A DNA stretch of 58,015 nt. Origin: Parvularcula lutaonensis (GTDB lineage Bacteria > Pseudomonadota > Alphaproteobacteria > Caulobacterales > Parvularculaceae). The position numbers and the translations under genes were made by a program. The stretch's first letter is position 1. Each line of letters begins with the position of its first letter. The notes under the pieces were generated by a model. It was given only the letters and a program-made list of their open reading frames with translations. It did no database searches and had not been told where the DNA came from. Below, piece after piece: positions 1 through 58,015 of the stretch. Location: the NCBI RefSeq assembly GCF_014651915.1, contig NZ_BMXU01000004.1:1-58015 (forward strand), in the 5' to 3' direction.

Positions 1-39
1 CGAGATGATTTCCTCGGGTTTGTAGCGCTTCGCGCCCAT
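1..39 (-). CDS. IS3-family transposase OrfA, N-terminal fragment
   Basis: Thirteen codons reading MGAKRYKPEEIIS, cut by the window edge. The same start is read for 30 codons at 57924-58015, where the context (PEEIISKLREAEVLLAEG) matches the N-terminal helix-turn-helix protein OrfA of IS3-family elements of the IS407/IS51 type. An AGGAGAAGAG ribosome binding site precedes the ATG. Nothing can be said about whether the full gene is intact. Confidence 0.75.
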   Translation of the reverse strand, partial: MGAKRYKPEEIIS

Positions 40-104
40 CGCTCTTCTCCTGCAGACAAGCCATTCTTTCACTCAGACTGGCTGCGTTCAAAGGGGACGG
101 GTCA
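1..104 (-). mobile_element. IS3-family insertion sequence, 5' end only
   Basis: On the minus strand this segment starts with TGACCCGTCCCC at 104, a typical IS3-family terminus, and carries the leader and first 13 codons of OrfA before the window ends. The right end of the window (57859 onward) repeats it in opposite orientation with one difference: a C in this copy and an A in the other, in the leader just before the ribosome binding site. The element therefore extends outward to the left. The target-site duplication cannot be judged because the far end of the element is missing. Confidence 0.85.
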
Positions 105-277
105 AAGCTGCCAAATCCTGGCGCCGTCTTCCAAGGAAAAACCGGGAAAAAAACCTGAAAAAACCGCTCAGAGCACAATACCCGAAGTGGCCCCCGTAGA
201 ACGACAAGTCAAAGCGAGGACGCGTCATAGATGGAAATAAATGACGGGGGCGTCCTTCGTTCAGCGTGTACCTGGCG

Positions 278-2683
278 CTACTGAGCAGATACCTGAAATA
301 GTAACCCGGGCTGGGGGCATCCAATTTCGGCTTGCGTGGGCGGCTTTGCTGGGAGCGCGTACTGCCAGCTGCTCGGTTCTATGTTCTCCTTTGCCCACGG
401 GAGCAGAACATATTCCGCTTCGAGGGGATGGAACATGAAGCGTAAGACTCCGCTGCGATCATAGATCCCCGCCACGACTCCATCAGAAAATCTGGTCCCA
501 GGGAGGTCTGGTCGTCGGATGAATCCAACTCTGTAAGTCGTGGACGGCTTGAGGGTGAAAAGATCCCAAGGCAACGGCGCATCTTCCCACCCGTTCTCTG
601 CCCGTTTCTTAGTGGCTAAGGCCTCAACTTGCTCTTTGGGCGGAACGGCTAAGGTGAAACTGGCTGCATTGAATTGCTCTACGCGCTTCTGCATTTCGTC
701 GCTGAAACCCGACGCGACCATCACGAGGTCTCTCGCTCTGGATGTCCGATAGTTGTTGTCCCAGACGGCCGTCGCTTTCCACGAGAAGGGTACGTCAGAA
801 TAACTTTGCAGGACCGACGGGTATTCGCCTTCGTCAAGCCCATCATCAGAGACTGGGTTCTTGTCGGTGCGCATGAAGGCAATTGGTCTCGATATAACAC
901 GTGTACCGACAAATCGATCGCCTTGATAGAAATTGAAGACGACAAGCATCTCATCATAGCCCGCGTTAGCGCCGGCAAATCTGAGCATGGGAACAGCGAA
1001 TTCGAGAGAGATGCCCTGGCCTGGATCGTAAGGTAGGCGCCTCTCGCTCCCCCTCAGCCCCTCTTCGAAAAGGGGAACATCATTCAGATAGGTTTGATAT
1101 GTAAATGTGGTAGGGGCAACAATGTCGGTGAGCGGTGATAGTTCGATGGACATCAGCATGAAGGGCTCGCTCTTCTGCGTCAGAAGGCGACAGCTCGTCG
1201 AGAAGGAAGGAACGATCCACCCTGAACGCTGCTCACTTAAGTCTTTTGAGGTGGTTTGAACTCCCGAATAGAGCTCTCTCTCGTCAAGATCTGTTCGCCT
1301 CGTAGATGTCCACCACTCGATCTGAGAGCTCGTTTCGATTCTGCCTCGAAACCCTTGTGCTCGGCTCGGGTAACAGTCTGCATCTCGGTCGATAAGCAGG
1401 TATCCAGGAATTCGGTCAATCGATTCACACCACCGGGGCTCTGTGCAGGAGAAGGTTGCTTTTTCAGCTATCCGCCTTTCAGTCCGTAGTAGACAGAGTT
1501 TCGTCGCGGTTCGCTCAAGGGCTACGGGGCCGTTGGTTGCAAAGCCTGCAACGTCATCAAAATTGGGTTGTATCCGTGCGCTGAGAACTCCTCCGACCTG
1601 AGGCGCACGAAGTCTTATTTTCCCACCGCTAATATGAGCAGTATTCGGACTGCTCAGGGTAAAGACGTTGTCGGCAACCCATGGATGATCTTGAACAAGG
1701 CGGAAGGGCGGGTTGCGATCATCCGGAATGAGATTTGCTAGTTCGGGGCTAAAATACTGTAAGACGGACCGGCGTTCGGCCGGAGAGGTAGGTCGGAAGC
1801 GGAACTCTGCTTCTAGCCACTCTTCAGGAAGCGCCTCGTCTCCTAACTTCAGCTGCGAGCATTTCTTAGCCTCTGCTTGCGTCGCATCTAGGAGCGATTT
1901 TACCCTCGCCAGTGGCGTCATATACTTAAACGAACCGAAATGGGCATCTTGGCTTCGCGCGTAGCCGACAATGCCAGCGACGCCATCGTCGTTGATTACG
2001 ATGACCGGTGCGCCGCTCAAGCCTTCGGTAAGATCACCCTCCAGCAGCGTCATTTCTTGCAGATAACGACCTGCAACATTCCGGTCACTCCCAGCCGTTC
2101 CACGAAAAATTTCCCGCTCACCTCTTCGAGGGTATCCGTACACGAATAGTTCAGTGGATGAATTGAGCTTATCGATACAGATCGGGGACGTCCCGTCTCC
2201 GAGCTGATCGATCTTCCAATCTTCGCGATCGATTTCTAGTATGGCGAGATCTGATGCTTTGGCGCGTGCTTCCTCGGCATCGATTAAATCGCTTCTCTCA
2301 GCTGCGAACTCCTTTTTATCCGCTCCCTTCGCCTGCGGATTCTTCACGCCGATTCTCGCTTTAATCTCGATAGCGTCCAGGTATTCATTTTTCGGAGGTG
2401 GAAGCTCGATAATCGAGTCTTGTCGGCGGGCGCATTTTAGGTCAGTCAGTAGGTGGCGGGCTGTAATGATAAATTGGGAATTCAGAATAAAGCCGCTGCC
2501 ATAGATGGGCTCGCATCGAACTGTTCCTTCGGGCGTCCTCACCGTGCCATTTACCTCAAGGGCAACCAGGTTTGCTTGGAGCTGCTTTTCTATGAGCAAG
2601 CGCTTTTCATCTTGCTGCTGGGCTTCTGCTACGGAGACAGAATACAGCAAGAATGCGACAGTCCAAAGGGCGCGTACAGCCAT
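278..2683 (-). CDS. secreted trypsin-like serine protease with large unknown C-terminal region
   Basis: 801 residues. Residues 1-21 form a signal peptide ending AEA-Q. Residues about 30-270 resemble a chymotrypsin-fold protease: His77 in ITARHLL, Asp145 in SDLAILEID and Ser223 in EGLSGAPV make a plausible triad (family knowledge: TAAHC, DIAL, GNSGGP). The remaining ~530 residues match nothing I recognise and may be beta-rich. The ATG at 2683 has GGAG six bases upstream; the in-frame upstream start would be TTG. It is the last gene of a tight operon, one base after the metalloprotease gene. The cognate substrate is unknown. It could be a processing protease for the operon's other products or an effector. 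Base composition is clearly lower in GC than the rest of the window. Confidence 0.8.
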   Translation of the reverse strand: MAVRALWTVAFLLYSVSVAEAQQQDEKRLLIEKQLQANLVALEVNGTVRTPEGTVRCEPIYGSGFILNSQFIITARHLLTDLKCARRQDSIIELPPPKNEYLDAIEIKARIGVKNPQAKGADKKEFAAERSDLIDAEEARAKASDLAILEIDREDWKIDQLGDGTSPICIDKLNSSTELFVYGYPRRGEREIFRGTAGSDRNVAGRYLQEMTLLEGDLTEGLSGAPVIVINDDGVAGIVGYARSQDAHFGSFKYMTPLARVKSLLDATQAEAKKCSQLKLGDEALPEEWLEAEFRFRPTSPAERRSVLQYFSPELANLIPDDRNPPFRLVQDHPWVADNVFTLSSPNTAHISGGKIRLRAPQVGGVLSARIQPNFDDVAGFATNGPVALERTATKLCLLRTERRIAEKATFSCTEPRWCESIDRIPGYLLIDRDADCYPSRAQGFRGRIETSSQIEWWTSTRRTDLDERELYSGVQTTSKDLSEQRSGWIVPSFSTSCRLLTQKSEPFMLMSIELSPLTDIVAPTTFTYQTYLNDVPLFEEGLRGSERRLPYDPGQGISLEFAVPMLRFAGANAGYDEMLVVFNFYQGDRFVGTRVISRPIAFMRTDKNPVSDDGLDEGEYPSVLQSYSDVPFSWKATAVWDNNYRTSRARDLVMVASGFSDEMQKRVEQFNAASFTLAVPPKEQVEALATKKRAENGWEDAPLPWDLFTLKPSTTYRVGFIRRPDLPGTRFSDGVVAGIYDRSGVLRFMFHPLEAEYVLLPWAKENIEPSSWQYALPAKPPTQAEIGCPQPGLLFQVSAQ

Positions 2684-2684
2684 T

Positions 2685-3602
2685 TTACTCTCCAAATCTC
2701 GTACACGGAGTGTTCCCGGGCGGACAATAGAGCTGTCTTAAAGTACTTTTGTCGAGATCGCTTAGGGTACAGTCAGGCACACCATCCTGAATAGTACACA
2801 TCTGAAAACGCCCTGGCCGACAGTAGTTCATGAATGAATCAGGGTCGTACTCAGTGAGTGCCTCGATCTCTTCGGCGCTGAACCCGGAAGCGAAAGTTCC
2901 ACAGGATTGCCCGCCACTTTTCGCACAGAAGGTTTTCTGTAATAGCTGAAGGCATTCGGCCTCTGCAGTCTCGGAGTTTTCGCCTCTTTCTAAACTTGGA
3001 TGCCCCATCTCATGAAGGAGTCCCACGACGTGTCCGAATTCATGAAGTGCGGAGGATGCTATACACTGGTCAACGTTGGCGTCGTCACGGCAGTTGATAA
3101 AGGGCCAGTCCTCGAGCTCGAGCCCAGATTTTCTTTGTAGAGAACGTTGCCAGGCATGGAATGAGAACGCGAGGCGTACGTCAGTTGGGCCGTCTAACTG
3201 GCGTCCAACCTCGGCGGTCAGAGTTGATTCCGAGTCGATCACGGCAATGCGCACATCGTACTCAGCATCCGTCTCACAAGGCGGCCAAACAGAATCGAAC
3301 TTTAGTCGCGTCTCGGCCTCAATAGTCGAGCGAACAACATCCCTAACGATTTTCCGCTTACGGAGTACCTCCGCCCGTTCTTTCCGCGGGCGAGGAAGTG
3401 GATCCGCCCAACAGACATCCAGTTCACCGAGCCTGGTGGGCCAAATTGCAGACGATAGCACGACTCCGCGTGGATCCTCTATGATATCATAGCGAGTGTC
3501 TCGCTCGTCCGTCTCGCGGGCTGGTGACTGCGCCGAAGCAAAAGCTCCTACGAAGATGCAAAAAGTCGTCTGGACTAACGCGAAAGCGAAGATCTGTTTC
3601 AT
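2685..3602 (-). CDS. secreted astacin-like (metzincin) zinc metalloprotease
   Basis: 305 residues with an N-terminal signal sequence (about 1-24). The zinc site HEFGHVVGLLHE supplies His187, Glu188, His191 and His197 in the metzincin spacing HExxHxxGxxH, followed by Glu as in astacins. A Met-turn is visible at Met259 in YDPDSFMNYC, close to the astacin form YDxxSIMxY. Many cysteines (171, 180, 217, 227, 235, 262, 270 and C-terminal ones) suggest disulfides and an exported location. The ATG overlaps the stop of the preceding lipoprotein gene by 4 bp, and the trypsin-like gene follows directly. No classical astacin prodomain switch is obvious. The substrate is not inferable. Confidence 0.82.
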   Translation of the reverse strand: MKQIFAFALVQTTFCIFVGAFASAQSPARETDERDTRYDIIEDPRGVVLSSAIWPTRLGELDVCWADPLPRPRKERAEVLRKRKIVRDVVRSTIEAETRLKFDSVWPPCETDAEYDVRIAVIDSESTLTAEVGRQLDGPTDVRLAFSFHAWQRSLQRKSGLELEDWPFINCRDDANVDQCIASSALHEFGHVVGLLHEMGHPSLERGENSETAEAECLQLLQKTFCAKSGGQSCGTFASGFSAEEIEALTEYDPDSFMNYCRPGRFQMCTIQDGVPDCTLSDLDKSTLRQLYCPPGNTPCTRFGE

Positions 3603-4789
3603 ATCCAACCACACCCTGTCTGTGCGTGAGGTACCACCAGCCACCAATCTAGTCCTGCGGCCGTGTAAGGTGCCTTGGCCTCATCAATTGCGTCATTCAG
3701 CAATGCAGAAACGGTCGCGCGCTCTGGTGCGGACAGATCTGACTGAAGTGATGACCTGACCTTCGCCACCTTTTCGCAGGCCTGGCGAGCGTTACTTCGT
3801 CGCTGGACCCATTGGGGGTCGGTCGGATCATAGGCTCCTTCACCGAAAGTTGCGGCAGCGAGACCCGCCTCGATTTGCGGTCTCGAGACGTCCCTCAGCG
3901 TACTGGCTAGCTCCACCGCAGACTGCAGTGCCACGGAGGCATTCGAGGTTTCGGCAACTGTAACTGCGAGTGTGAACGGTTGAGCTTTGCAGGTCCGTAG
4001 CGAACACATGGAAAGCAGGCGTTGCTGATCGCCGCCCGATGGGGTGAATATAGGGAGCCAAGGTGCCTTTTCAGAGGCTAAGGCCAGCTTGTCCCGCTCT
4101 TCGCCTGGCCTCATTTGATCGATGACCAGTCGGGTTTGTCGTGCTGTGGGATCGGCAGCAGAGTCGAACGAGAAATCAACTATCAGGTCCCGCCGGTTCG
4201 CGCGCATCCAGCCGGAGCCTAATGACTTGCGATAATAAATGTACTCAGGCTCCAGGGCGAACACATCCATTGTTTCGCCGGCCACGATCCGCGCTTCGAT
4301 GTAAACTTTTGGCAGGGAGCCCGAAGGGAGACCGCTAACGTCGAACGCGCCCTCCAATCCAGATAGCGCTGAGCCTGCGAACGCATCGCTCGCCGGGTTC
4401 GACGAAGTCTCTCCGCCGACCGCAATTAGTACACAACCAAGCCCATCATTGATTGAGTAAGTGAAAGAGCCATCCACTTCGGTTAGAAAGTAGTCATTGG
4501 CCGAGCCCCTTGCTGTGACCTCTGAGGGTCCTGAGATCGCATCGAGCTTCTTGTCGACAAAATTAAAGCCTGAGTCGACGAGCTGAGGGATCAAGATCGG
4601 CGCGAGAACTGCCCCCCAGCCAGCGAATTTTTCAGAATCTTCGCTTGCACGGGGAGACTTTAGACAGTCAGACCTGAAAGCGACACTGACAGCGCCAGGA
4701 GAGGTGTCCCGCTGGTTTAAGGAGCTACAACTCGAACAGAAAAGTGTCAGGGCCAAGATTAAGAGGACAGATTTGTTTGCTGGGATCAT
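3599..4789 (-). CDS. probable lipoprotein of unknown function
   Basis: 396 residues. The N-terminus MIPANKSVLLILALTLFCSSC is a hydrophobic leader ending at Cys21 in a lipobox-like context (the -3 residue is Cys, so the box is imperfect), suggesting a membrane-anchored lipoprotein. The body has no motif I recognise and includes several Cys in pairs (for example CSLRTCKAQ). It starts inside the stop of the NlpC/P60-like gene (ATGA overlap) and its stop overlaps the metalloprotease start, so it is translationally coupled on both sides. It may be an anchor, chaperone or inhibitor for the co-encoded proteases; this is inference from position only. Confidence 0.7.
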   Translation of the reverse strand: MIPANKSVLLILALTLFCSSCSSLNQRDTSPGAVSVAFRSDCLKSPRASEDSEKFAGWGAVLAPILIPQLVDSGFNFVDKKLDAISGPSEVTARGSANDYFLTEVDGSFTYSINDGLGCVLIAVGGETSSNPASDAFAGSALSGLEGAFDVSGLPSGSLPKVYIEARIVAGETMDVFALEPEYIYYRKSLGSGWMRANRRDLIVDFSFDSAADPTARQTRLVIDQMRPGEERDKLALASEKAPWLPIFTPSGGDQQRLLSMCSLRTCKAQPFTLAVTVAETSNASVALQSAVELASTLRDVSRPQIEAGLAAATFGEGAYDPTDPQWVQRRSNARQACEKVAKVRSSLQSDLSAPERATVSALLNDAIDEAKAPYTAAGLDWWLVVPHAQTGCGWI

Positions 4790-6759
4790 CGATTCGACTC
4801 CGCAAATTCTCTGAACATGGCTGCGGGAGCGCTACATAGCTCATCAACTTCTCCGGAAGTGATCGCTTCGTCTGGTATGAGGTGTCGAGGACGCATCGGG
4901 ATGTATCCGTCGAAGGTATCCCAGGGCAGAGTTCTGCGGCAGATGCCACCACAGAAGGTCGATGATTCTATGAACTCGATCGTGGATGGAGATGTCCAGC
5001 GAAGAAACATTCGCACGTGACTCCCCGGCTTGTTCAAAACATCACCGGGTCGCAGCGCCTCTTTGTCGATTGGATCGGCAATTGACCCCAAACTTCTCGT
5101 CGAATAGCGCACTCCCTCCCAACCCCAAGCGCGTTGAACGAATCCTGAGCAATCGAGTCCAGCGGAGTAAACGTCGTTGATGGAATTCGTTCGTTCCCGG
5201 ATTATCATCTCGGTACAAACATCGCCTGCAGGTCGACCAGCCTCGATCTTATCAATGAACTCCCACGGCCAGTCGGCGCCGGCCCACGCGTAAGGAAGCG
5301 AGACGAGCAGCTCGTCAGTATAAGACTTAAATCGCTTGGGTCGTGACCAATAAGGTAGCGAACATCTGTCGCTATCCTCACATTTATCTGAAAAAGCCCT
5401 CGAGTCGAAACAGAAGTCTGTAGATGGCGAGTAGCTACGCTCAGGCATTTTCCAGGGGAGGTGGAGGTATGTGCACGCGTTCGCTATCACATCCCTGCGG
5501 GTGACCCCTTGCTGGGTTGACTGCCGTACGAAACTCTCACGGAGAAGGCTTTTCATCGCTGCAATACGCCTTCGGCTAGATTCCAACCGCTCCGTCTCCG
5601 GAACAGCTTGGATATCAGGAGCTATAGATCTTCCTTCGATCTCGGAGAATTCAGCGGGCGGTTCGGCTATCGATTGCGCCTGGCTTTCTGCCGTCGCCTG
5701 TTCAGCGACCTTCCGTGGGCTATGCGACCCCGAGCGTCCGAATCTGTTTGGTAGCCATCGCGCCCCCCATCGGATATTGGAGTACCAGGCGGGCTTTACG
5801 TGTAGTTTTGTGATGACGACTTCATCGCGGAGTAACTGTAGCGAAAAGACATCTCCGTCAGCAGAGATCGCCACGTTTTGAGTCGGAGTACATAACGGCG
5901 ACCTCGGAACAAAGAAAAAGGCTATGCCTTTATCAGAACTCTGATCGAGACGGATTACAGTTTGCTCGAGACGGATCTCTGTTGGATGTGGAACCGTTTC
6001 GGTAACAAGCAGGTAGGCTCGGCCCCTCGTGTCAAGGCCAAGTCCGCGGAGGCTCTCAATCTTGTGGTCTGAAACAAAGAATGACTGCCGAGAGGCATCA
6101 TCGTCGAACGTTGTCGTTAAAGCCAGTCCGTAGGCTGAATCACTCTCCCAATCAACGCTGACAAATCTGCCTCGCTCGTCGGAGATCGAAATGAAGCCGT
6201 TCGAGAGGATCTGACGTTCGATACTCGGCTCGAAGTCTGCGATCCGCAGGAAAGCACTACCGGTCGATCCGGTCGCTAGGGCGCCAGCGTCAACTCCGAG
6301 CAATTTGAATTTGGGCTCCGCCTGCGTCCAGCTTGGCTTCGGCGCACTGACGGCTCCGGCGTCCACATAAATGAGCCTGCCCGGTTGTCCCGTCTCGTAT
6401 TGTGTCGCCACGAACGCCCCCGAGCCAATGGCCGCAAAAGCGGTGGCGATCTCACCGTTTCTGAGTTCCAGCTCGCGCAACCCTACCGGAGTGCTCCTAT
6501 TCAACCCAAATGAAGCGACCCGATCGCCTGCACTGTCGAAGATTACCGACTGTCCGTTTCGGGCGATGTCTAAACCGAGCGGGCAGACCACCCCTTCGTC
6601 GGCCTTCAGAAGACCAACGTCCACGACAAGGAATGCATCTGTGGTGGAGTCCTGCGAGAGGTTTGTGGGAAAGCTGCGAACGTCTGAGAACTCATTGAAG
6701 AGAATGGTGAAATATGCAAGCGCAGCAATAACCGGTACGAAAAAACCCACAATGCGCAT
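4786..6759 (-). CDS. membrane-anchored NlpC/P60-like protein
   Basis: 657 residues. A hydrophobic segment (residues 4-20) acts as signal or anchor. Residues about 40-370 are beta-rich with recurrent short hydrophobic strands, possibly a propeller. The C-terminal third contains an NlpC/P60-type site: Cys537 in LDCSGFVQRAWGW and His581 in PGSHVRMFLRW, with DVLNKPGSH matching the family's GDLxxxxxxHVGI stretch. Such enzymes cleave peptidoglycan peptides or act as amidases/acyltransferases. I chose the ATG at 6759 (MRIVGFFV), which puts the hydrophobic segment at the N-terminus; an upstream start at 6813 is in frame. It is the first gene of the four-gene exported-protein operon. Confidence 0.72.
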   Translation of the reverse strand: MRIVGFFVPVIAALAYFTILFNEFSDVRSFPTNLSQDSTTDAFLVVDVGLLKADEGVVCPLGLDIARNGQSVIFDSAGDRVASFGLNRSTPVGLRELELRNGEIATAFAAIGSGAFVATQYETGQPGRLIYVDAGAVSAPKPSWTQAEPKFKLLGVDAGALATGSTGSAFLRIADFEPSIERQILSNGFISISDERGRFVSVDWESDSAYGLALTTTFDDDASRQSFFVSDHKIESLRGLGLDTRGRAYLLVTETVPHPTEIRLEQTVIRLDQSSDKGIAFFFVPRSPLCTPTQNVAISADGDVFSLQLLRDEVVITKLHVKPAWYSNIRWGARWLPNRFGRSGSHSPRKVAEQATAESQAQSIAEPPAEFSEIEGRSIAPDIQAVPETERLESSRRRIAAMKSLLRESFVRQSTQQGVTRRDVIANACTYLHLPWKMPERSYSPSTDFCFDSRAFSDKCEDSDRCSLPYWSRPKRFKSYTDELLVSLPYAWAGADWPWEFIDKIEAGRPAGDVCTEMIIRERTNSINDVYSAGLDCSGFVQRAWGWEGVRYSTRSLGSIADPIDKEALRPGDVLNKPGSHVRMFLRWTSPSTIEFIESSTFCGGICRRTLPWDTFDGYIPMRPRHLIPDEAITSGEVDELCSAPAAMFREFAESNR

Positions 6760-7108
6760 TGTCTCGCCCCCGCAAGTTTGCATCAGCACCTTACGAGTAC
6801 TGTCAGTCGACAAAAGCCCTGGGTGCAGTTAGCGTCTGGAGAAATCCGTTGAGTATCCCGATCAGACGTTAGAGCGCGGTTGTTTTCGATCGGCCGTCAC
6901 GTTCCATAACCGCGGAACTCGATACTAGAAACATGGGTACTGAGGCGGGTAACGTGTCGTAGAGGGTTAGAATATTTGTCGTATAATCAGAGGGTAGGCG
7001 TCGAAGTTAGAATCCGCCCTTGGCACCACTTTCTCGTTTTGTCGTTTCGTCCGATGCGCTGCGCTTGGGTTTTCTCCGCCGGGCCGGCGGGGCTCGGCGC
7101 ATGGCGGG
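6760..7108. other. intergenic region between the protease operon and the lysR gene
   Basis: About 350 bp without a convincing gene. It must hold the promoter of the minus-strand protease operon, but I see no clear -35/-10 pair for it. A TATAAT hexamer lies on the plus strand at 6982-6987 with no obvious downstream gene. The base composition changes within this stretch, from the lower-GC operon to the GC-rich chromosome beyond about 7030, so it may contain the junction of an acquired segment. Confidence 0.4.
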
Positions 7109-8017
7109 CTAGGCCTTTCCAAGGGCGTCCTTGTCCTGGTCTGCGGCCTTCTGCATGACCATGCGAAGGGCCGGGTTGGGGAACCTGCGTGACATGGTGA
7201 TCGCGTAGAAGGCCTCCGTGAGGCCGGGCAGGTCGAGAACGTCAATCAGGCGACCCGAAGCGAGTTCGTCCTTCACGACGATGGGCGGAACAACGGCGAG
7301 GGCGACCTCTTCACGCGCGAGGACCCGGAGCAGGGCCATGTCATCGACCTCTGCGAAGATGTTCGGCTTGATCCCCAAGCGCTCCACCAGCCCGTCGAAC
7401 CCGATCCTGATGCTGCTGTCCTTGGACGGAACGATCAGCCGCTCTTCTGAAAGGAGACGTTCGAGACTTCGCCTTCCCCGGCGAAAGCCGGCAGGAGCGA
7501 CGAGGCTGACCTGTTGCTCAGCAAGCGGATGGACAATCCACGGACTCTCCCCCGTCCGCGCGGGGATTTGATCCGTCAGCGCAACGTCCAGCTTCTGCGC
7601 GATCAGGAGAGAGACCAGCTCGTCAAGGCTCCCCGAACGGATCGAGAGAAAGATGTCCTCTTCGCCGATGAGAGGTCGCAGGAACTGCATCTGGAAGTTC
7701 CGTGACAGGGTGGAGAGCGCGCCCACACGGAGGATCTTCGCCTGTGATTCGTTGCGCTGCAGGAGCGTGTCGAGAAGCTCCTCTCCGGTGGAAAAGATCA
7801 CGTCCGCATGGTCAAGGGCTATCGCGCCTGCCTCGGTCAGGACCAGCTGTTTTCCTTTCCGCTCAAAGAGCTTCTGGCCGAGGCGTTCCTCAAGCTTCTT
7901 GATCTGGAAGGACAGCGCCGACTGGGAGACATTGAGCTTCTGTGCCGTCCGGGTGAGGTTGCCATCATGGGCGACGGCCCAGAAGTAACGCAGGTGGTGG
8001 TAGTTGAGCGTCGTCAT
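7109..8017 (-). CDS. LysR-family transcriptional regulator (NhaR-like)
   Basis: 302 residues, normal for LysR proteins. The N-terminal winged helix-turn-helix begins NYHHLRYFWAVAHDGNLT with SQSALSFQIKKLEERLG as recognition helix; this opening is characteristic of the NhaR subgroup. The C-terminal co-inducer domain follows from about residue 95. The ATG at 8017 gives the canonical start; an open frame continues upstream to 8845 but runs through dabB and has no LysR homology. It is divergent from dabB with a 96-bp spacer, the usual arrangement for a LysR activator of its neighbour. NhaR responds to sodium and alkalinity in enterics. Here the target is probably the dab operon, whose DabB belongs to the antiporter/NuoL superfamily. 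Confidence 0.88.
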   Translation of the reverse strand: MTTLNYHHLRYFWAVAHDGNLTRTAQKLNVSQSALSFQIKKLEERLGQKLFERKGKQLVLTEAGAIALDHADVIFSTGEELLDTLLQRNESQAKILRVGALSTLSRNFQMQFLRPLIGEEDIFLSIRSGSLDELVSLLIAQKLDVALTDQIPARTGESPWIVHPLAEQQVSLVAPAGFRRGRRSLERLLSEERLIVPSKDSSIRIGFDGLVERLGIKPNIFAEVDDMALLRVLAREEVALAVVPPIVVKDELASGRLIDVLDLPGLTEAFYAITMSRRFPNPALRMVMQKAADQDKDALGKA

Positions 8018-8037
8018 CGGCCTTCGCGAAAAAAGAA

Positions 8038-8066
8038 CAATATCATCGTCACATTGAATTATATTG
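8038..8066. promoter_or_regulatory. candidate LysR operator between lysR and dabB
   Basis: An AT-rich island in the 96-bp divergent spacer contains CAATAT (8038-8043) and its inverted copy ATATTG (8061-8066) with 17 bases between. It includes T-N11-A type spacing expected of LysR sites. It lies 48-76 bp upstream of the dabB ATG, suited to activation. This is a visual call only. Confidence 0.35.
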
Positions 8067-8113
8067 ATTGAGCAAGCGCAGGTAAATCCCTCCCCGCACT
8101 GAGCGGAGTGGAT

Positions 8114-9646
8114 ATGAACCAAGCGATACTGGAACTGGCCCCCGCATTCACCGGGGCCTGCTTTTTTCTTGCGGCCCTCGGGATCTGGAGGTTTGGCGGG
8201 AGTGGCCGGGACGCTCGCCTGGCTGTCGCGGCGTCGATAGCCGCGCTGGCCGGCGCTTTGCTGACAGGGTTCGCTGCCTTCTCCGGCCCACCGGGAGGGT
8301 CGACGGTGCTGGCAGGCCTCTATCTTGCCGACCCGTTGAGCGCAGGGCTCCTGCTGCTGGTCGGTGTGCTTGCCCTTGTCATCCTGCGTTTCTCGATAAA
8401 CTATCTCGATGGCGATCCGCGCAGGCGTTTGTTCCTCACACGGATGTCGCTTGCCCTCGCCGCGGTGGCTACCCTCGTCAGCACCAACCACTTGACGATT
8501 CTCGTCCTCGCATGGATTGGCGCGAGCGCCGCCCTGCACAGCCTCTTGCTGTTCCACAGGGACAGGCCGCGTGCGATCGTTGCAGCACGGAAGAAGATGT
8601 TCTTTGCCCGCCTTGGAGATCTCTGGCTCCTCTCCGGGGCAGCCCTGATTGCGTTGGAATTCGGCTCGTTCCGTATCAGCACGATCCTTTCTTCCGCTTC
8701 CGCTGCGCCGGACGGGTCGCTCATCACCGGTATCGCCTGCTTCTTCCTCGTCGGTGCTGCCGCACTCAAATGTGCCCAGTTTCCCAGTCATGGTTGGCTG
8801 ACAGAGGTGATGGAGACTCCGACGCCGGTCTCGGCGCTGCTTCATGCCGGGATCGTCAATGCCGGAGGGTTCCTGCTGATCCGGTTTGCCGATGTGCTGG
8901 TGCTCAACCCTGTTGCCATGAATGCCCTGGTTGTCATCGGAGGCTTTTCAGCCCTGTTCGGTACGATCTGTATGCTGACGCAAACCAGCGTGAAGGTGAG
9001 CCTTGGCTATTCTACGATAGCCCAAATGGGTTTCATGCTCCTGCAGATCGGGCTTGGGGTGTTCAGCGCCGCCGCGCTCCATCTTGTTGCGCATTCGCTT
9101 TACAAAGCGCATGCCTTCCTCTCTTCGGGCAGGGCAGTCCTGGCGGTCGCATCGCGCCAGCCCTCAAGCCCTGCGAGGCCGATCACCGTGCTTTTCGGAC
9201 TGGCTGCGGCCGGAGCGGTCTATGCCGGCATCGGGGCAGCGCTCGACGGAACCGTCGCCAAGACCCCGGCCATCATGGCGCTGGGTGCGATCTTCATGGC
9301 CGGGCTCTCCGTCTACCTCATTCGCAGCGCGCGGGGGCCCGGCACGTTCGTGGTCGGTCTCCTCATCAGCGCCGCAGCCTCGCTTTCCTATTTCCTGCTG
9401 CAGGTTGGCGCCGCCGCGCTTCTCGCCGGTGTCGTGCCCGCACCTCGGGAGCCGGGCCTCTTTGCGGGCATTCTGATGGCCCTTGTGGTGGCGTCCTTCG
9501 TGGCGGTCGCCCTCTTCCAGTCGGGCGCCTTCTCGGCAGCAAAGAGATTGAACGAGCGCGCTTATGTGCACCTCGCTCGCGGGCTCTACGCGAATGCCCT
9601 CAACGACCGCGCAATCGGTTCCCTTCGCCTCAAACGCGCCGCCTGA
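8114..9646 (+). CDS. dabB: DabB: proton-conducting membrane subunit of DAB inorganic carbon transporter
   Basis: 510 residues, a multi-pass membrane protein of the NuoL/MrpA (proton_antipo_M) superfamily. It has the family features PSHGWLTEVMETPTPVSALLHAG (a key Lys is replaced by His/Gly context) and HLVAHSLYKAHAFLSSG in the second half. In characterised DAB complexes the NuoL-like DabB couples ion movement to DabA, which hydrates CO2 vectorially to bicarbonate. I start at ATG 8114 after GGAG; an in-frame GTG lies 6 bp upstream. dabA follows after 18 bp. It is shorter than true NuoL, as expected for DabB. Confidence 0.9.
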   Translation: MNQAILELAPAFTGACFFLAALGIWRFGGSGRDARLAVAASIAALAGALLTGFAAFSGPPGGSTVLAGLYLADPLSAGLLLLVGVLALVILRFSINYLDGDPRRRLFLTRMSLALAAVATLVSTNHLTILVLAWIGASAALHSLLLFHRDRPRAIVAARKKMFFARLGDLWLLSGAALIALEFGSFRISTILSSASAAPDGSLITGIACFFLVGAAALKCAQFPSHGWLTEVMETPTPVSALLHAGIVNAGGFLLIRFADVLVLNPVAMNALVVIGGFSALFGTICMLTQTSVKVSLGYSTIAQMGFMLLQIGLGVFSAAALHLVAHSLYKAHAFLSSGRAVLAVASRQPSSPARPITVLFGLAAAGAVYAGIGAALDGTVAKTPAIMALGAIFMAGLSVYLIRSARGPGTFVVGLLISAAASLSYFLLQVGAAALLAGVVPAPREPGLFAGILMALVVASFVAVALFQSGAFSAAKRLNERAYVHLARGLYANALNDRAIGSLRLKRAA

Positions 9647-9664
9647 CGGCCTGGAGACCTCGTC

Positions 9665-12133
9665 ATGACCATCGTCGATTTTGCAGATCCCGGAGTATTG
9701 GCGAGCGACAAGGAGCTCCGCCAAGCTGCGCTATCCGCATGCGAACTGATCGCGCCGATATGGCCACTGAAGGATTTCGTGGCCGTCAACCCGATGCAGG
9801 GTATGTCCTCGACGGCCTTCTCCAAGGCGAACAGGGCGGTCCGCCGTGCAAATGGGCAGAGCCTGCTGATGCCGCGTTCCTATTACCGGGATGCGTTCGC
9901 CGAAGGCGTTTTCACGCTGGACGATATCGAAGCGGCAATCGGCGAGCTGGGCATGTCCGGCCGGATCAGCCCCGAAGAGGCTGTCGGGGAGCTATCCAAG
10001 GAACGGGCCGAGCGCGATGACCGGGTGCTGCCAAGCTTTGCTGACCTGATATCGGATCTGTCGGGACAAGACTGGGCGTCCTTCGTGGTCGACCAGATTT
10101 CCTTCTGGGCGGCCGGGTACTTCGATCAGGGACAGGCGCTATGGCGTTATCCGTGGGCTGATCGGACCCCTTACGCCGCGTGGCGCGCCCAGGCATCGAT
10201 TGACCGCTCACCGGAGCTGCTGGGTCTTCACGGGTTTCGTGCCGAGGTTGCGATCCTCCCGTCAGAACCCCTGGCAACACTGAAACTGGTGGTCACGATA
10301 CTGAATATTCCCGAGGAGAGCCGGGCGGCCTATTTCCATCGCCTGCTCTCGACTGTCGCTGGCTGGGCCGGGCATATGCGTTATCGAGGCTGGGGCGATG
10401 AGCTGAAGGGCGGGAAGCCCGACCAGCTCATGGATCTCCTCGCCATTCGCGCTGCCTTTGACCTGTGCCTTTTCAACTGCCTGCGTGCGAAAGAGCCCGA
10501 TGTGGAATGGGCGCAATCCATCAGCGAAGCCTATTCGGAGAAAGCCGACGAAAGGACCGAGGAGGTCGACCTTCTCGCCCACCGCGCGCTCGAGCGAGCC
10601 TACCAAAGGCGTCTCGTCAGGGATCTTCATGGAGCTTCACGCATTGCGTCGCTCAAACCCCAAAAAGAGCGGCCCTCGGCGCAGGCTGTGTTCTGCATCG
10701 ACGTGCGCTCCGAACGTTTCCGTAGGGCACTCGAGGCCGCCGACCCGACGATCGAGACCCTGGGGTTCGCGGGGTTCTTCGGCCTTCCACTGGCCGTTGA
10801 AGATCCGGTCTCCGGAGAGGTGCAGGCCCAGTGCCCCGTCCTGCTCGAGCCCCGCTACACGGTGGAAGTGGTGGAGGGCGGCAACGCCGCGCTCCTCCAG
10901 CTGCGCCGGTCTGCCCTTGGCGCGTGGAAGCATTTCAAGAACGCGGCGGTGGCGTCGTTCTCCTTCGTGGAGGCGATGGGTGTCGGTTTCGCCTCCGCCC
11001 TCGCACGGGACAGCATCCTTCTGCCGAGTGACCGGAAGAGGAAGCCGGCCAGTCTTTCCGTTGATCCGTATGGGGTGGATCCGGTGCATGGTATCCCGCT
11101 CGATGACCGGATTGCGCTTGCCGAAGCGATGATCTCAGGAATGGCGCTCGGCCCCGACCCTGCGCGTATCGTCCTGCTTGCTGGCCATGGTGCAACGGTA
11201 ACCAACAATCCGTATGCCGCTGGCCTCGATTGCGGGGCCTGCGGTGGCCATGCCGGCGATAGCAATGCGAGGGTCGCGGCTGCCGTGCTAAACGATGCCC
11301 GTGTCCGGCGTGCGCTGGCCGATCGGGACAGGGGCCTTCCCGAGGATACCGTCTTTGTCGCAGCGCTGCATGATACCGTCACCGATGACGTCACGATCCT
11401 CGACCTGGACGCTGTTCCGGAGAGCCACGCGCAGGATCTCGCCATGCTTCGCCGGAACCTTGTCGATGCCGGGCGGATGACACGCCGGGAGCGTGCCGCC
11501 GAGCTTGGCCTTCCGGTGGGGAAGGACACGGACCGGATGATGGCTGCAAGGAGCCGCGACTGGTCGCAGATACGCCCGGAATGGGGCCTAGCGGGCTGTG
11601 CCGCTTTCATCGCGGCGCCGCGCAAGAGAAGCAGGGGGATCGATCTCGAAGGCAGGGCATTCCTGCATTCCTATGAATGGCGGACGGATACGGACAATTC
11701 CGTGCTCGAGCTCATCATGACCGCGCCGCTGGTGGTCGCGAGCTGGATCAACCTGCAATACTATGCCTCGACCGTGAACAACGAGGCCTTCGGCAGCGGC
11801 GACAAGACATTGCATAATGTCGTCGGCGGAGTCGGCGTTCTTGAAGGCAATGCCGGTGATCTGCGCGGTGGCCTGCCGCTCCAGTCCGTCCACACCGGAA
11901 CGGCTTTCTACCACCAGCCCCTCCGGCTCACCGCGGTCATCGAGGCACCAATCGCGAGAATCGACGCTGTTCTGGCCAAGCACCAGCACGTGGCCGACCT
12001 GTTCGACAATCAGTGGCTGACCCTGATCGCCATCGAAGACGAGGGCTGGAGCTTCCGCCGATATGTTGGACATGGCTCATGGAGCGACGCCTCGCCCTTG
12101 GCCGAGGCCGGCACGGAGAGGGATGCGGCATGA
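9665..12133 (+). CDS. dabA: DabA: zinc-binding carbonic-anhydrase-like subunit (DUF2309)
   Basis: 822 residues, the normal DabA length. The zinc site described for Halothiobacillus DabA is preserved with the same spacing: Cys344 and Asp346 in VFCIDVRSERF, then His508 in LAGHGATV and Cys523 in GLDCGACGGHAG (2 and 15 residues apart). The protein is peripheral and partners with DabB at the inner membrane to trap CO2 as bicarbonate. No RuBisCO or carboxysome genes are present here, so in this organism it more likely feeds anaplerotic carboxylation, as in other heterotrophs carrying DAB; that is inference. Its last 4 bp (ATGA) overlap the cysD start. Confidence 0.93.
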   Translation: MTIVDFADPGVLASDKELRQAALSACELIAPIWPLKDFVAVNPMQGMSSTAFSKANRAVRRANGQSLLMPRSYYRDAFAEGVFTLDDIEAAIGELGMSGRISPEEAVGELSKERAERDDRVLPSFADLISDLSGQDWASFVVDQISFWAAGYFDQGQALWRYPWADRTPYAAWRAQASIDRSPELLGLHGFRAEVAILPSEPLATLKLVVTILNIPEESRAAYFHRLLSTVAGWAGHMRYRGWGDELKGGKPDQLMDLLAIRAAFDLCLFNCLRAKEPDVEWAQSISEAYSEKADERTEEVDLLAHRALERAYQRRLVRDLHGASRIASLKPQKERPSAQAVFCIDVRSERFRRALEAADPTIETLGFAGFFGLPLAVEDPVSGEVQAQCPVLLEPRYTVEVVEGGNAALLQLRRSALGAWKHFKNAAVASFSFVEAMGVGFASALARDSILLPSDRKRKPASLSVDPYGVDPVHGIPLDDRIALAEAMISGMALGPDPARIVLLAGHGATVTNNPYAAGLDCGACGGHAGDSNARVAAAVLNDARVRRALADRDRGLPEDTVFVAALHDTVTDDVTILDLDAVPESHAQDLAMLRRNLVDAGRMTRRERAAELGLPVGKDTDRMMAARSRDWSQIRPEWGLAGCAAFIAAPRKRSRGIDLEGRAFLHSYEWRTDTDNSVLELIMTAPLVVASWINLQYYASTVNNEAFGSGDKTLHNVVGGVGVLEGNAGDLRGGLPLQSVHTGTAFYHQPLRLTAVIEAPIARIDAVLAKHQHVADLFDNQWLTLIAIEDEGWSFRRYVGHGSWSDASPLAEAGTERDAA

Positions 12134-57858: not shown

Positions 57859-58015
57859 TGACCCGTCCCCTTTGAACGCAGCCAGTCTGAGTGAAAGAAT
57901 GGCTTGTCTGAAGGAGAAGAGCGATGGGCGCGAAGCGCTACAAACCCGAGGAAATCATCTCGAAGCTGCGTGAGGCTGAAGTCCTGCTGGCTGAAGGGGT
58001 CAGTGTCGGCGAGGT
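57859..58015 (+). mobile_element. IS3-family insertion sequence, 5' end only
   Basis: Begins TGACCCGTCCCCTTTG at 57859 and continues beyond the window. It is the same element as at 1-104, in inverted orientation, differing by one base in the leader (A here, C there). It lies about 235 bp upstream of the egtB start. Confidence 0.85.
57924..58015 (+). CDS. IS3-family transposase OrfA, N-terminal fragment
   Basis: Thirty complete codons, MGAKRYKPEEIISKL then REAEVLLAEGVSVGE, cut by the window end. This is the N-terminal helix-turn-helix region of IS3-family OrfA. AAGGAGAAGAGCG supplies the ribosome binding site. OrfB and the frameshift site lie outside the window. Confidence 0.8.
   Translation, partial: MGAKRYKPEEIISKLREAEVLLAEGVSVGE

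Follow-up and report, generated by a model that had tools for sequence, protein, structure and literature searches.

The window analysed here, 58,015 bp long, is the entire contig C4 of a genome of 2.95 Mb in 10 contigs, which from its gene content is taken for that of an alphaproteobacterium. It carries at its left end four genes, A to D, that are read from the same strand and joined by 4 bp ATGA overlaps at the A/B and B/C boundaries and by a 1 bp gap between C and D (Table 1). This coupling had been proposed in a first-pass annotation of the sequence and is confirmed by the coordinates, as is the integrity of the predicted active sites: the triad of D, the metal site and Met-turn of C, and a cysteine-histidine pair in A all lie at the positions assigned to them.

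Table 1. Genes and sequence features at the left end of the window.
Feature	Position	Strand	Description
Gene A	6759-4786	minus	657 aa; N-terminal membrane anchor (read by eye), beta-rich region, C-terminal NlpC/P60-like cysteine peptidase
Gene B	4789-3599	minus	396 aa; probable lipoprotein, non-canonical lipobox
Gene C	3602-2685	minus	305 aa; exported astacin-like metzincin
Gene D	2683-278	minus	801 aa; exported chymotrypsin-fold serine protease with a long C-terminal part
Upper border of low-GC segment	6760..7100		GC of about 0.48-0.54, climbing to 0.63 close to 7000
Repeat end	1..104		also the contig end; read as the end of a putative insertion sequence

The designation of D as a trypsin-like protease holds, since the Trypsin_2 family of Pfam matches above its cut-off (34.7 against 27.6 bits) and the triad, His77/Asp145/Ser223, is conserved, being invariant in 15 of 15 aligned proteins. 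The catalytic domain spans approximately residues 38-270. In a structure model, residues 1-270 are fairly modelled, with pLDDT below 50 only at 86-95, 131-141 and 247-250, and a Foldseek search retrieves Deg, HtrA and V8 proteases (best E 1.3e-10); from residue 271 to 801 pLDDT lies below 50 nearly throughout, and this C-terminal part of approximately 530 residues yielded no convincing relatives. Since Deg/HtrA and V8 proteases are the nearest to the catalytic domain by fold, a function in envelope quality control or maturation would suit, with D acting like HtrA or Deg and with envelope proteins and the wall being processed or remodelled by C and A; we return to this explanation with the distribution of D.

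Gene C has a zinc site, HEFGHVVGLLHE, of the HExxHxxGxxH type from residue 187 and a Met-turn, SFMNYC, from residue 256, both invariant in six aligned sequences that include C itself. Pfam gives no Astacin match up to E = 1, and its best model, Peptidase_M10, reaches 18 bits against a cut-off of 24; a six-row profile that includes C nevertheless finds myroilysin (M12A) in the PDB at E 9e-9. The term astacin-like, used in the first-pass annotation, is kept here because of this profile match, and not because of the Pfam astacin family. According to a review of astacins (PMC9848320), these enzymes carry prosegments that keep them latent, and myroilysin employs a cysteine switch.

Gene A retains the catalytic pair Cys537 and His581, with Glu595 or Glu598 as a possible third residue, but its NlpC/P60 score in Pfam is below the cut-off (14.9 against 23 bits). 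The Cys and His are invariant in an alignment with one Rhizobium and one Neorhizobium relative, and a three-row profile of the domain reaches MepS/Spr (E 0.0059). The Rhizobium relative aligns to residues 420-627 of A at about 35% identity; when only the two sequences were compared, a second, weak alignment appeared in the N-terminal half (E 0.003), and there are NHL matches below threshold. A propeller-plus-NlpC architecture is likely to be common to the two proteins, and the beta-rich region of A is possibly an NHL-like propeller. The N-terminal part of A has no usable relatives, and a single-sequence structure model of A was unusable (mean pLDDT 33).

Gene B found no relatives in Pfam and no match among plasmids. 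Its N-terminus, read by eye, places FCSS before Cys21 and therefore Cys18 at the -3 position. A cysteine at -3 departs from the canonical lipobox pattern; B is nonetheless probably a lipoprotein. Genes that look by eye like lipoprotein genes lie directly upstream of a metzincin in nine other loci (L005, L022, L024, L026, L018, L027, L047, L058 and L097). When B and 13 proteins encoded upstream of metzincins were compared by hhalign, the one pair above 40% probability consisted of two Bradyrhizobium copies, and none of the 13 was detectably related to B. Export signals had been claimed for all four products: export-type N-termini can indeed be recognized by eye in each, but that of A resembles an uncleaved anchor rather than a clear signal peptide, and the lipobox of B is the non-canonical one just described.

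The operon differs in composition from its surroundings, as the first-pass annotation had noticed for GC content. Genes A-D have GC contents of 0.53-0.56 each, whereas the 40 other ORFs of the window, which were called mechanically and comprise some spurious frames, have a median of 0.64; GC3 is 0.54-0.58 against 0.77, and codon adaptation is 0.46-0.49, the median for other ORFs of at least 200 aa being 0.70. All four genes thus fall below the window-ORF medians in all three measures; an ORF at 8512-10020, in another frame over the Dab genes, is equally low in GC3 and codon adaptation. Adjoining the operon, at 7112-12133, are genes for a LysR regulator and the inorganic carbon transporter DabB/DabA, with matching segments in relatives. 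Beside the syntenic LysR gene, tblastn found no match to genes A-D in either of two relatives examined, one of the same genus and one of the same family (L128 and L129). This result and the foreign composition support horizontal acquisition of the quartet, in agreement with the earlier reading of an acquired module of exported proteases. Promoter and terminator scans of positions 1-7200 gave 4 and 7 sites, against 3.0 and 6.7 in shuffles, and Rfam and tRNA scans of the window gave no match.

Beyond the stop of D, 173 bp away, begins the 104 bp repeat end. As the contig stops there, no transposase gene can be read beside it. Stretches of 103-108 bp of this repeat are found again near the right end of C4 and at either end of contigs C2 and C6, and several breaks in the assembly therefore probably fall within copies of one element. 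Within the window the repeat stands at 1-104 and, in inverted orientation, at 57859-57962, that is, at or near both ends of C4. Because the contig ends 277 bp past the last base of D, further operon genes are possible.

The quartet is real and intact, and is so far unique among the genomes searched: the earlier description of it as conserved is not supported by searches of family, class and plasmid sequences, which found no second copy of all four genes. In the class, the proteins encoded by A and B matched 1 of 240 and 1 of 289 genomes, respectively, and a profile of the NlpC domain of A 1 of 385, in every case the window's own. At E 0.001 the metzincin profile gave matches in 12 of the 62 family genomes, strong ones in the window's genome and two others, and in the 3.0-3.4 kb around the metzincin of these two the other quartet genes were not found; at 1e-15 it matched 3 of 385 class genomes, with the window's own counted, and no trypsin was found in the 15.5 kb analysed for each of the other two. 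In a family relative (G246), locus L102 (3-2156) encodes a single metzincin, approximately 717 residues long, in which repeats resembling FG-GAP can be made out by eye; the other three quartet genes were not found in the surrounding 3 kb. Among viral contigs, the protein encoded by C alone gave no match, and the metzincin alignment gave three loci. A search of 62 family genomes found gene D in its own and in none of the other 61; in the class it has no convincing match outside its own genome, the second of the 2 matches in 385 genomes being at 5.4e-4, and in the 12 kb analysed around that match the metzincin, trypsin, caspase and NlpC profiles gave nothing. Housekeeping genes are generally not so sporadic in distribution. 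For this reason, and given the foreign composition of the operon, we regard the quality-control explanation as quite unlikely despite the Deg-like fold of D.

What does recur is the order of C and D. The metzincin alignment, run against named genomes of bacteria and archaea, gave at least 136 confirmed loci, of which 80 were kept; closer relatives may lie beyond the matches listed. With seven plasmid and three viral loci, and with nine stretches of the window's own genome left out, 90 loci were compared. A metzincin gene was called in 81, and the other nine were dropped, including two Rhizobiaceae plasmid loci (L003 and L004) that had been fetched by their NlpC match. A trypsin profile, seeded only by the domain of D and iterated on the genes of the metzincin loci, matches 29 genes among the matches listed there. 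In 19 of the 81 loci the trypsin lies at +1, directly downstream of the metzincin, while -1 and -2 occur twice each and four other offsets once each, again among the matches listed. After grouping of the metzincins at 70% identity into 71 groups, 68 of them with a gene at +1, the matches listed place a trypsin at +1 in 15 of 68 groups, at +2 in 0 of 63, and at a distance of three genes or more in 4 of 676 slots (Fisher p = 1.6e-13 for +1 against these distant slots). An independent Pfam scan of the same-strand genes within 200 bp after a metzincin found, among the matches listed, Trypsin_2 in 15 of 36 and a caspase in 2 of 36; by a caspase profile these two probably lie in L047 and L071. The neighbourhood of metzincin and trypsin is thus far above chance.

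The 15 paired groups comprise two viral contigs and, among the matches listed, isolates or plasmids of Bradyrhizobium, Peteryoungia and Sinorhizobium (the last a plasmid), uncultured Roseobacter, Rhodobacteraceae, Tropicimonas and Aurantimonas, and metagenome bins named Hyphomonadaceae, Hyphomicrobiales, Burkholderiales, Desulfobulbaceae, Acidobacteria and Marinimicrobia. The named isolates with the pair, among the matches listed, are alphaproteobacteria; spread beyond this class rests on binning, since the paired loci outside it (L019, L027, L036 and L077) are metagenome bins that may be misnamed. In a quick tree built from 72 metzincin rows, 56 of which lack a trypsin at +1, the pair label needs 10 changes, against a shuffle mean of 14.7 with 0 of 500 shuffles as low, and starred branches force only 2 changes. 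The pair therefore appears clustered on the tree, and a single origin with losses and repeated pairing would both fit. The recurrence of the C-D order also bears on the idea that the operon is a chance or decaying assembly, in which foreign genes without joint function were gathered beside a mobile repeat. Such an origin would accord with the repeat end at 1-104 and with the lack of a second complete quartet in the searches described; four intact frames, two ATGA couplings, a 1 bp gap and retained catalytic residues are hard to reconcile with it, and we consider it very unlikely.

Selected neighbours of the metzincin or of its trypsin were scanned for Pfam domains. PG_binding_1 occurs with a lactonase-type propeller in L009 (above cut-off) and L060 (below), with both propellers below cut-off; a GH25 domain is found near the metzincin in L051, a caspase in L006, and an M23 domain in 1 of 36 neighbours, by position probably in L006. 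Other companions are an M48 domain (below cut-off) and DUF1353 in L040, an amidohydrolase in L018 and a DUF900 hydrolase in L005. In L051, L006 and L040 the trypsin stands at offsets other than +1. In an IMG/VR contig (L097, 6-15508), genes for a lipoprotein, a metzincin and a trypsin lie amid phage genes, flanked by head genes (terminase, head/protease) and by tail terminator and tape-measure genes, and judging from this arrangement the trio occupies the position of phage cargo. A locus of Massilia sp. 9I (L047, 8827-15749) combines in one tight operon genes for a lipoprotein-like protein, a metzincin, an exported caspase-like protein and a 960-residue exported protein; by its gene content it follows the same plan, with a caspase replacing the trypsin.

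The Bradyrhizobium operons (L005, L022, L024 and L026) resemble the quartet in their order of lipoprotein, metzincin and trypsin-like protease and in their tight coupling. In contrast to the quartet, their lipoproteins are not detectably related to B, their serine protease is half as long as D, and after the protease gene they carry one for an alpha/beta hydrolase (DUF900, tested in L005 only) rather than having an NlpC protein. The closest relatives found of the NlpC domain of A come from plasmids: at 1e-5 it matches 90 plasmid records, 88 from Rhizobium and one each from Neorhizobium and Azospirillum, and at 0.01 seven more, from Streptomyces. In 3 of 3 Rhizobiaceae plasmid loci inspected (L003, L004 and L115), the NlpC gene lies in or beside a cluster of trypsin and caspase genes, which in L003 and L115 also contains serpin and kinase genes. 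These two loci, from plasmids of the Rhizobium leguminosarum complex (L003, 1-15396; L115, 1-13932), encode a kinase, a serpin, a trypsin-caspase-DUF4384 fusion (domains tested in L003), caspases, a DUF4384 protein, an NlpC-like protein and a protein with a tail-fibre domain, and proteases that come together with a serpin of their own resemble a regulated cascade. Unlike the quartet, the cluster has caspases and a serpin and no metzincin is listed for it; its NlpC gene is on the opposite strand from its neighbours. Neighbourhood of the four families in unrelated genomes, the check proposed in the first-pass annotation, is thus seen for metzincin and trypsin and, near trypsin and caspase, for NlpC, but in none of the genomes searched for all four. 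A caspase (Peptidase_C14) was not found in the window's genome, with a control search positive in 1 of 14 genomes, so the quartet is not a cluster of this Rhizobium type.

Among printed systems the closest comes from Kaur et al. 2020 (PMC7159879), the trypsin-NucA 'System 3', in which, according to the sections on it, trypsin-like peptidases are coupled to a NucA endonuclease, mostly in alphaproteobacteria. The same sections describe operons with several peptidases, trypsin-like and sometimes subtilisin, as well as EAD1-linked lysozyme-like and papain-like peptidoglycan enzymes and some trypsins fused to membrane segments, and its authors propose a proteolytic cascade. The quartet shares with System 3 the presence of several peptidases in one operon and the mostly alphaproteobacterial setting, but the core partner NucA (Endonuclease_NS, PF01223) was not found in the window's genome, where a control search was positive in 4 of 14 genomes, and section 32 of the same paper, which describes System 3, names no metzincin. 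Rare metallopeptidase effectors and a zincin-like peptide-processing enzyme appear in other parts of the paper, in other systems. We therefore reject membership in System 3 on the absence of NucA, and the earlier view that the operon is of no known type stands to that extent, although by analogy the quartet may work in a similar way. In PADLOC-DB 2023, A, B and C have no match and D has only generic protease-domain matches (LmuA, 2e-10; RT-Protease_XI, 8.5e-8), so that the quartet does not correspond to a known anti-phage defence system in that collection. The nearest solved relatives by profile or fold, myroilysin for C, HtrA/Deg/V8 for D and MepS/Spr for the NlpC domain of A, are single enzymes distant in sequence. 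Passages of the follow-up paper, PMC8195603, show no exported metzincin-trypsin pair, and no description of the pair or the quartet was found in the open-licence PMC literature among the matches listed, as judged from titles and the starts of abstracts. Gene order and homology point to the core pair as a recurring exported two-protease unit for which we found no earlier description. With cell-wall enzymes near some of the loci, this suggests a new kind of module that would either attack the envelope or guard it.

We propose that the operon was acquired horizontally and is a mobile two-protease module of the envelope, linked to a peptidase for peptidoglycan, and that it probably serves as a conflict or lysis device, a proposal that we would credit about as readily as doubt. 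All four products would leave the cytoplasm, as their N-termini suggest by eye. C and D would act as a unit, as the recurrence of the gene pair suggests, and most likely one protease would activate or license the other, because astacin-type enzymes are made as zymogens. The lipoprotein B may hold or sense at the membrane, and membrane-anchored A, with its NlpC domain in the periplasm, would cut peptidoglycan once released or activated. The output would be envelope damage to an invader, a rival or the cell itself, and it is this presumed output that places the module with conflict and lysis rather than with housekeeping. The first-pass annotation offered a cascade, weapon, defence or predation role, and we too infer a role of this order.

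The proposal is favoured by the recurrence of the pair, the invariant triad, the company of wall enzymes, the foreign composition and the phage cargo locus, and a role in conflict in particular by that locus and the patchy distribution. Against it we count that no second quartet was found, that most metzincins lack a trypsin at +1, that the paired loci outside alphaproteobacteria are bins, that the wall enzymes of L051 and L006 sit in loci without a trypsin at +1, that the NlpC match is below the Pfam cut-off, and that B, the N-terminus of A and the C-terminus of D have no usable relatives. No immunity gene, delivery system or target was found.

The prevalence of metzincins with no trypsin partner (the 56 of 72 above) is also what might be expected if C and D were ordinary secreted proteases for digestion or scavenging, kept in one operon for joint expression, with A recycling or remodelling the wall; and myroilysin, the nearest solved relative of C, is reported to be an elastase secreted by a deep-sea bacterium. 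The membrane anchor of the NlpC protein and the presence of a probable lipoprotein instead suggest the cell's own envelope, and the phage cargo locus, the patchy and plasmid-borne relatives, and the company of caspases and a serpin in Rhizobium are likewise at odds with digestion. Sporadic distribution makes a nutritional role, like one in quality control, less likely, and we think the digestive explanation doubtful.

The bacterial protease-based conflict systems treated in parts of PMC7159879 and PMC8195603 have NTPases, caspases, trypsins and nucleases at their core. A recurring exported metzincin-trypsin pair with varied wall enzymes and a ride in a phage would shift part of the logic of such systems to the envelope, and would provide an example of an extracytoplasmic protease cascade in bacteria that can be put to the test. 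We speculate, while thinking it rather unlikely, that these loci represent an undescribed class of exported proteolytic cascades, comprising a metzincin paired with a trypsin-like protease or caspase, a lipoprotein in the membrane and, in the role of executor, a cell-wall enzyme that can be exchanged, which would be spread by plasmids and phages and directed against phages or rivals, much like the extracellular cascades of animal immunity. A further variation on the downstream partner is seen in Peteryoungia aggregata (L023, 10591-12132), where the gene directly downstream of the metzincin encodes a trypsin-like domain fused to a VgrG3-like C-terminal domain.
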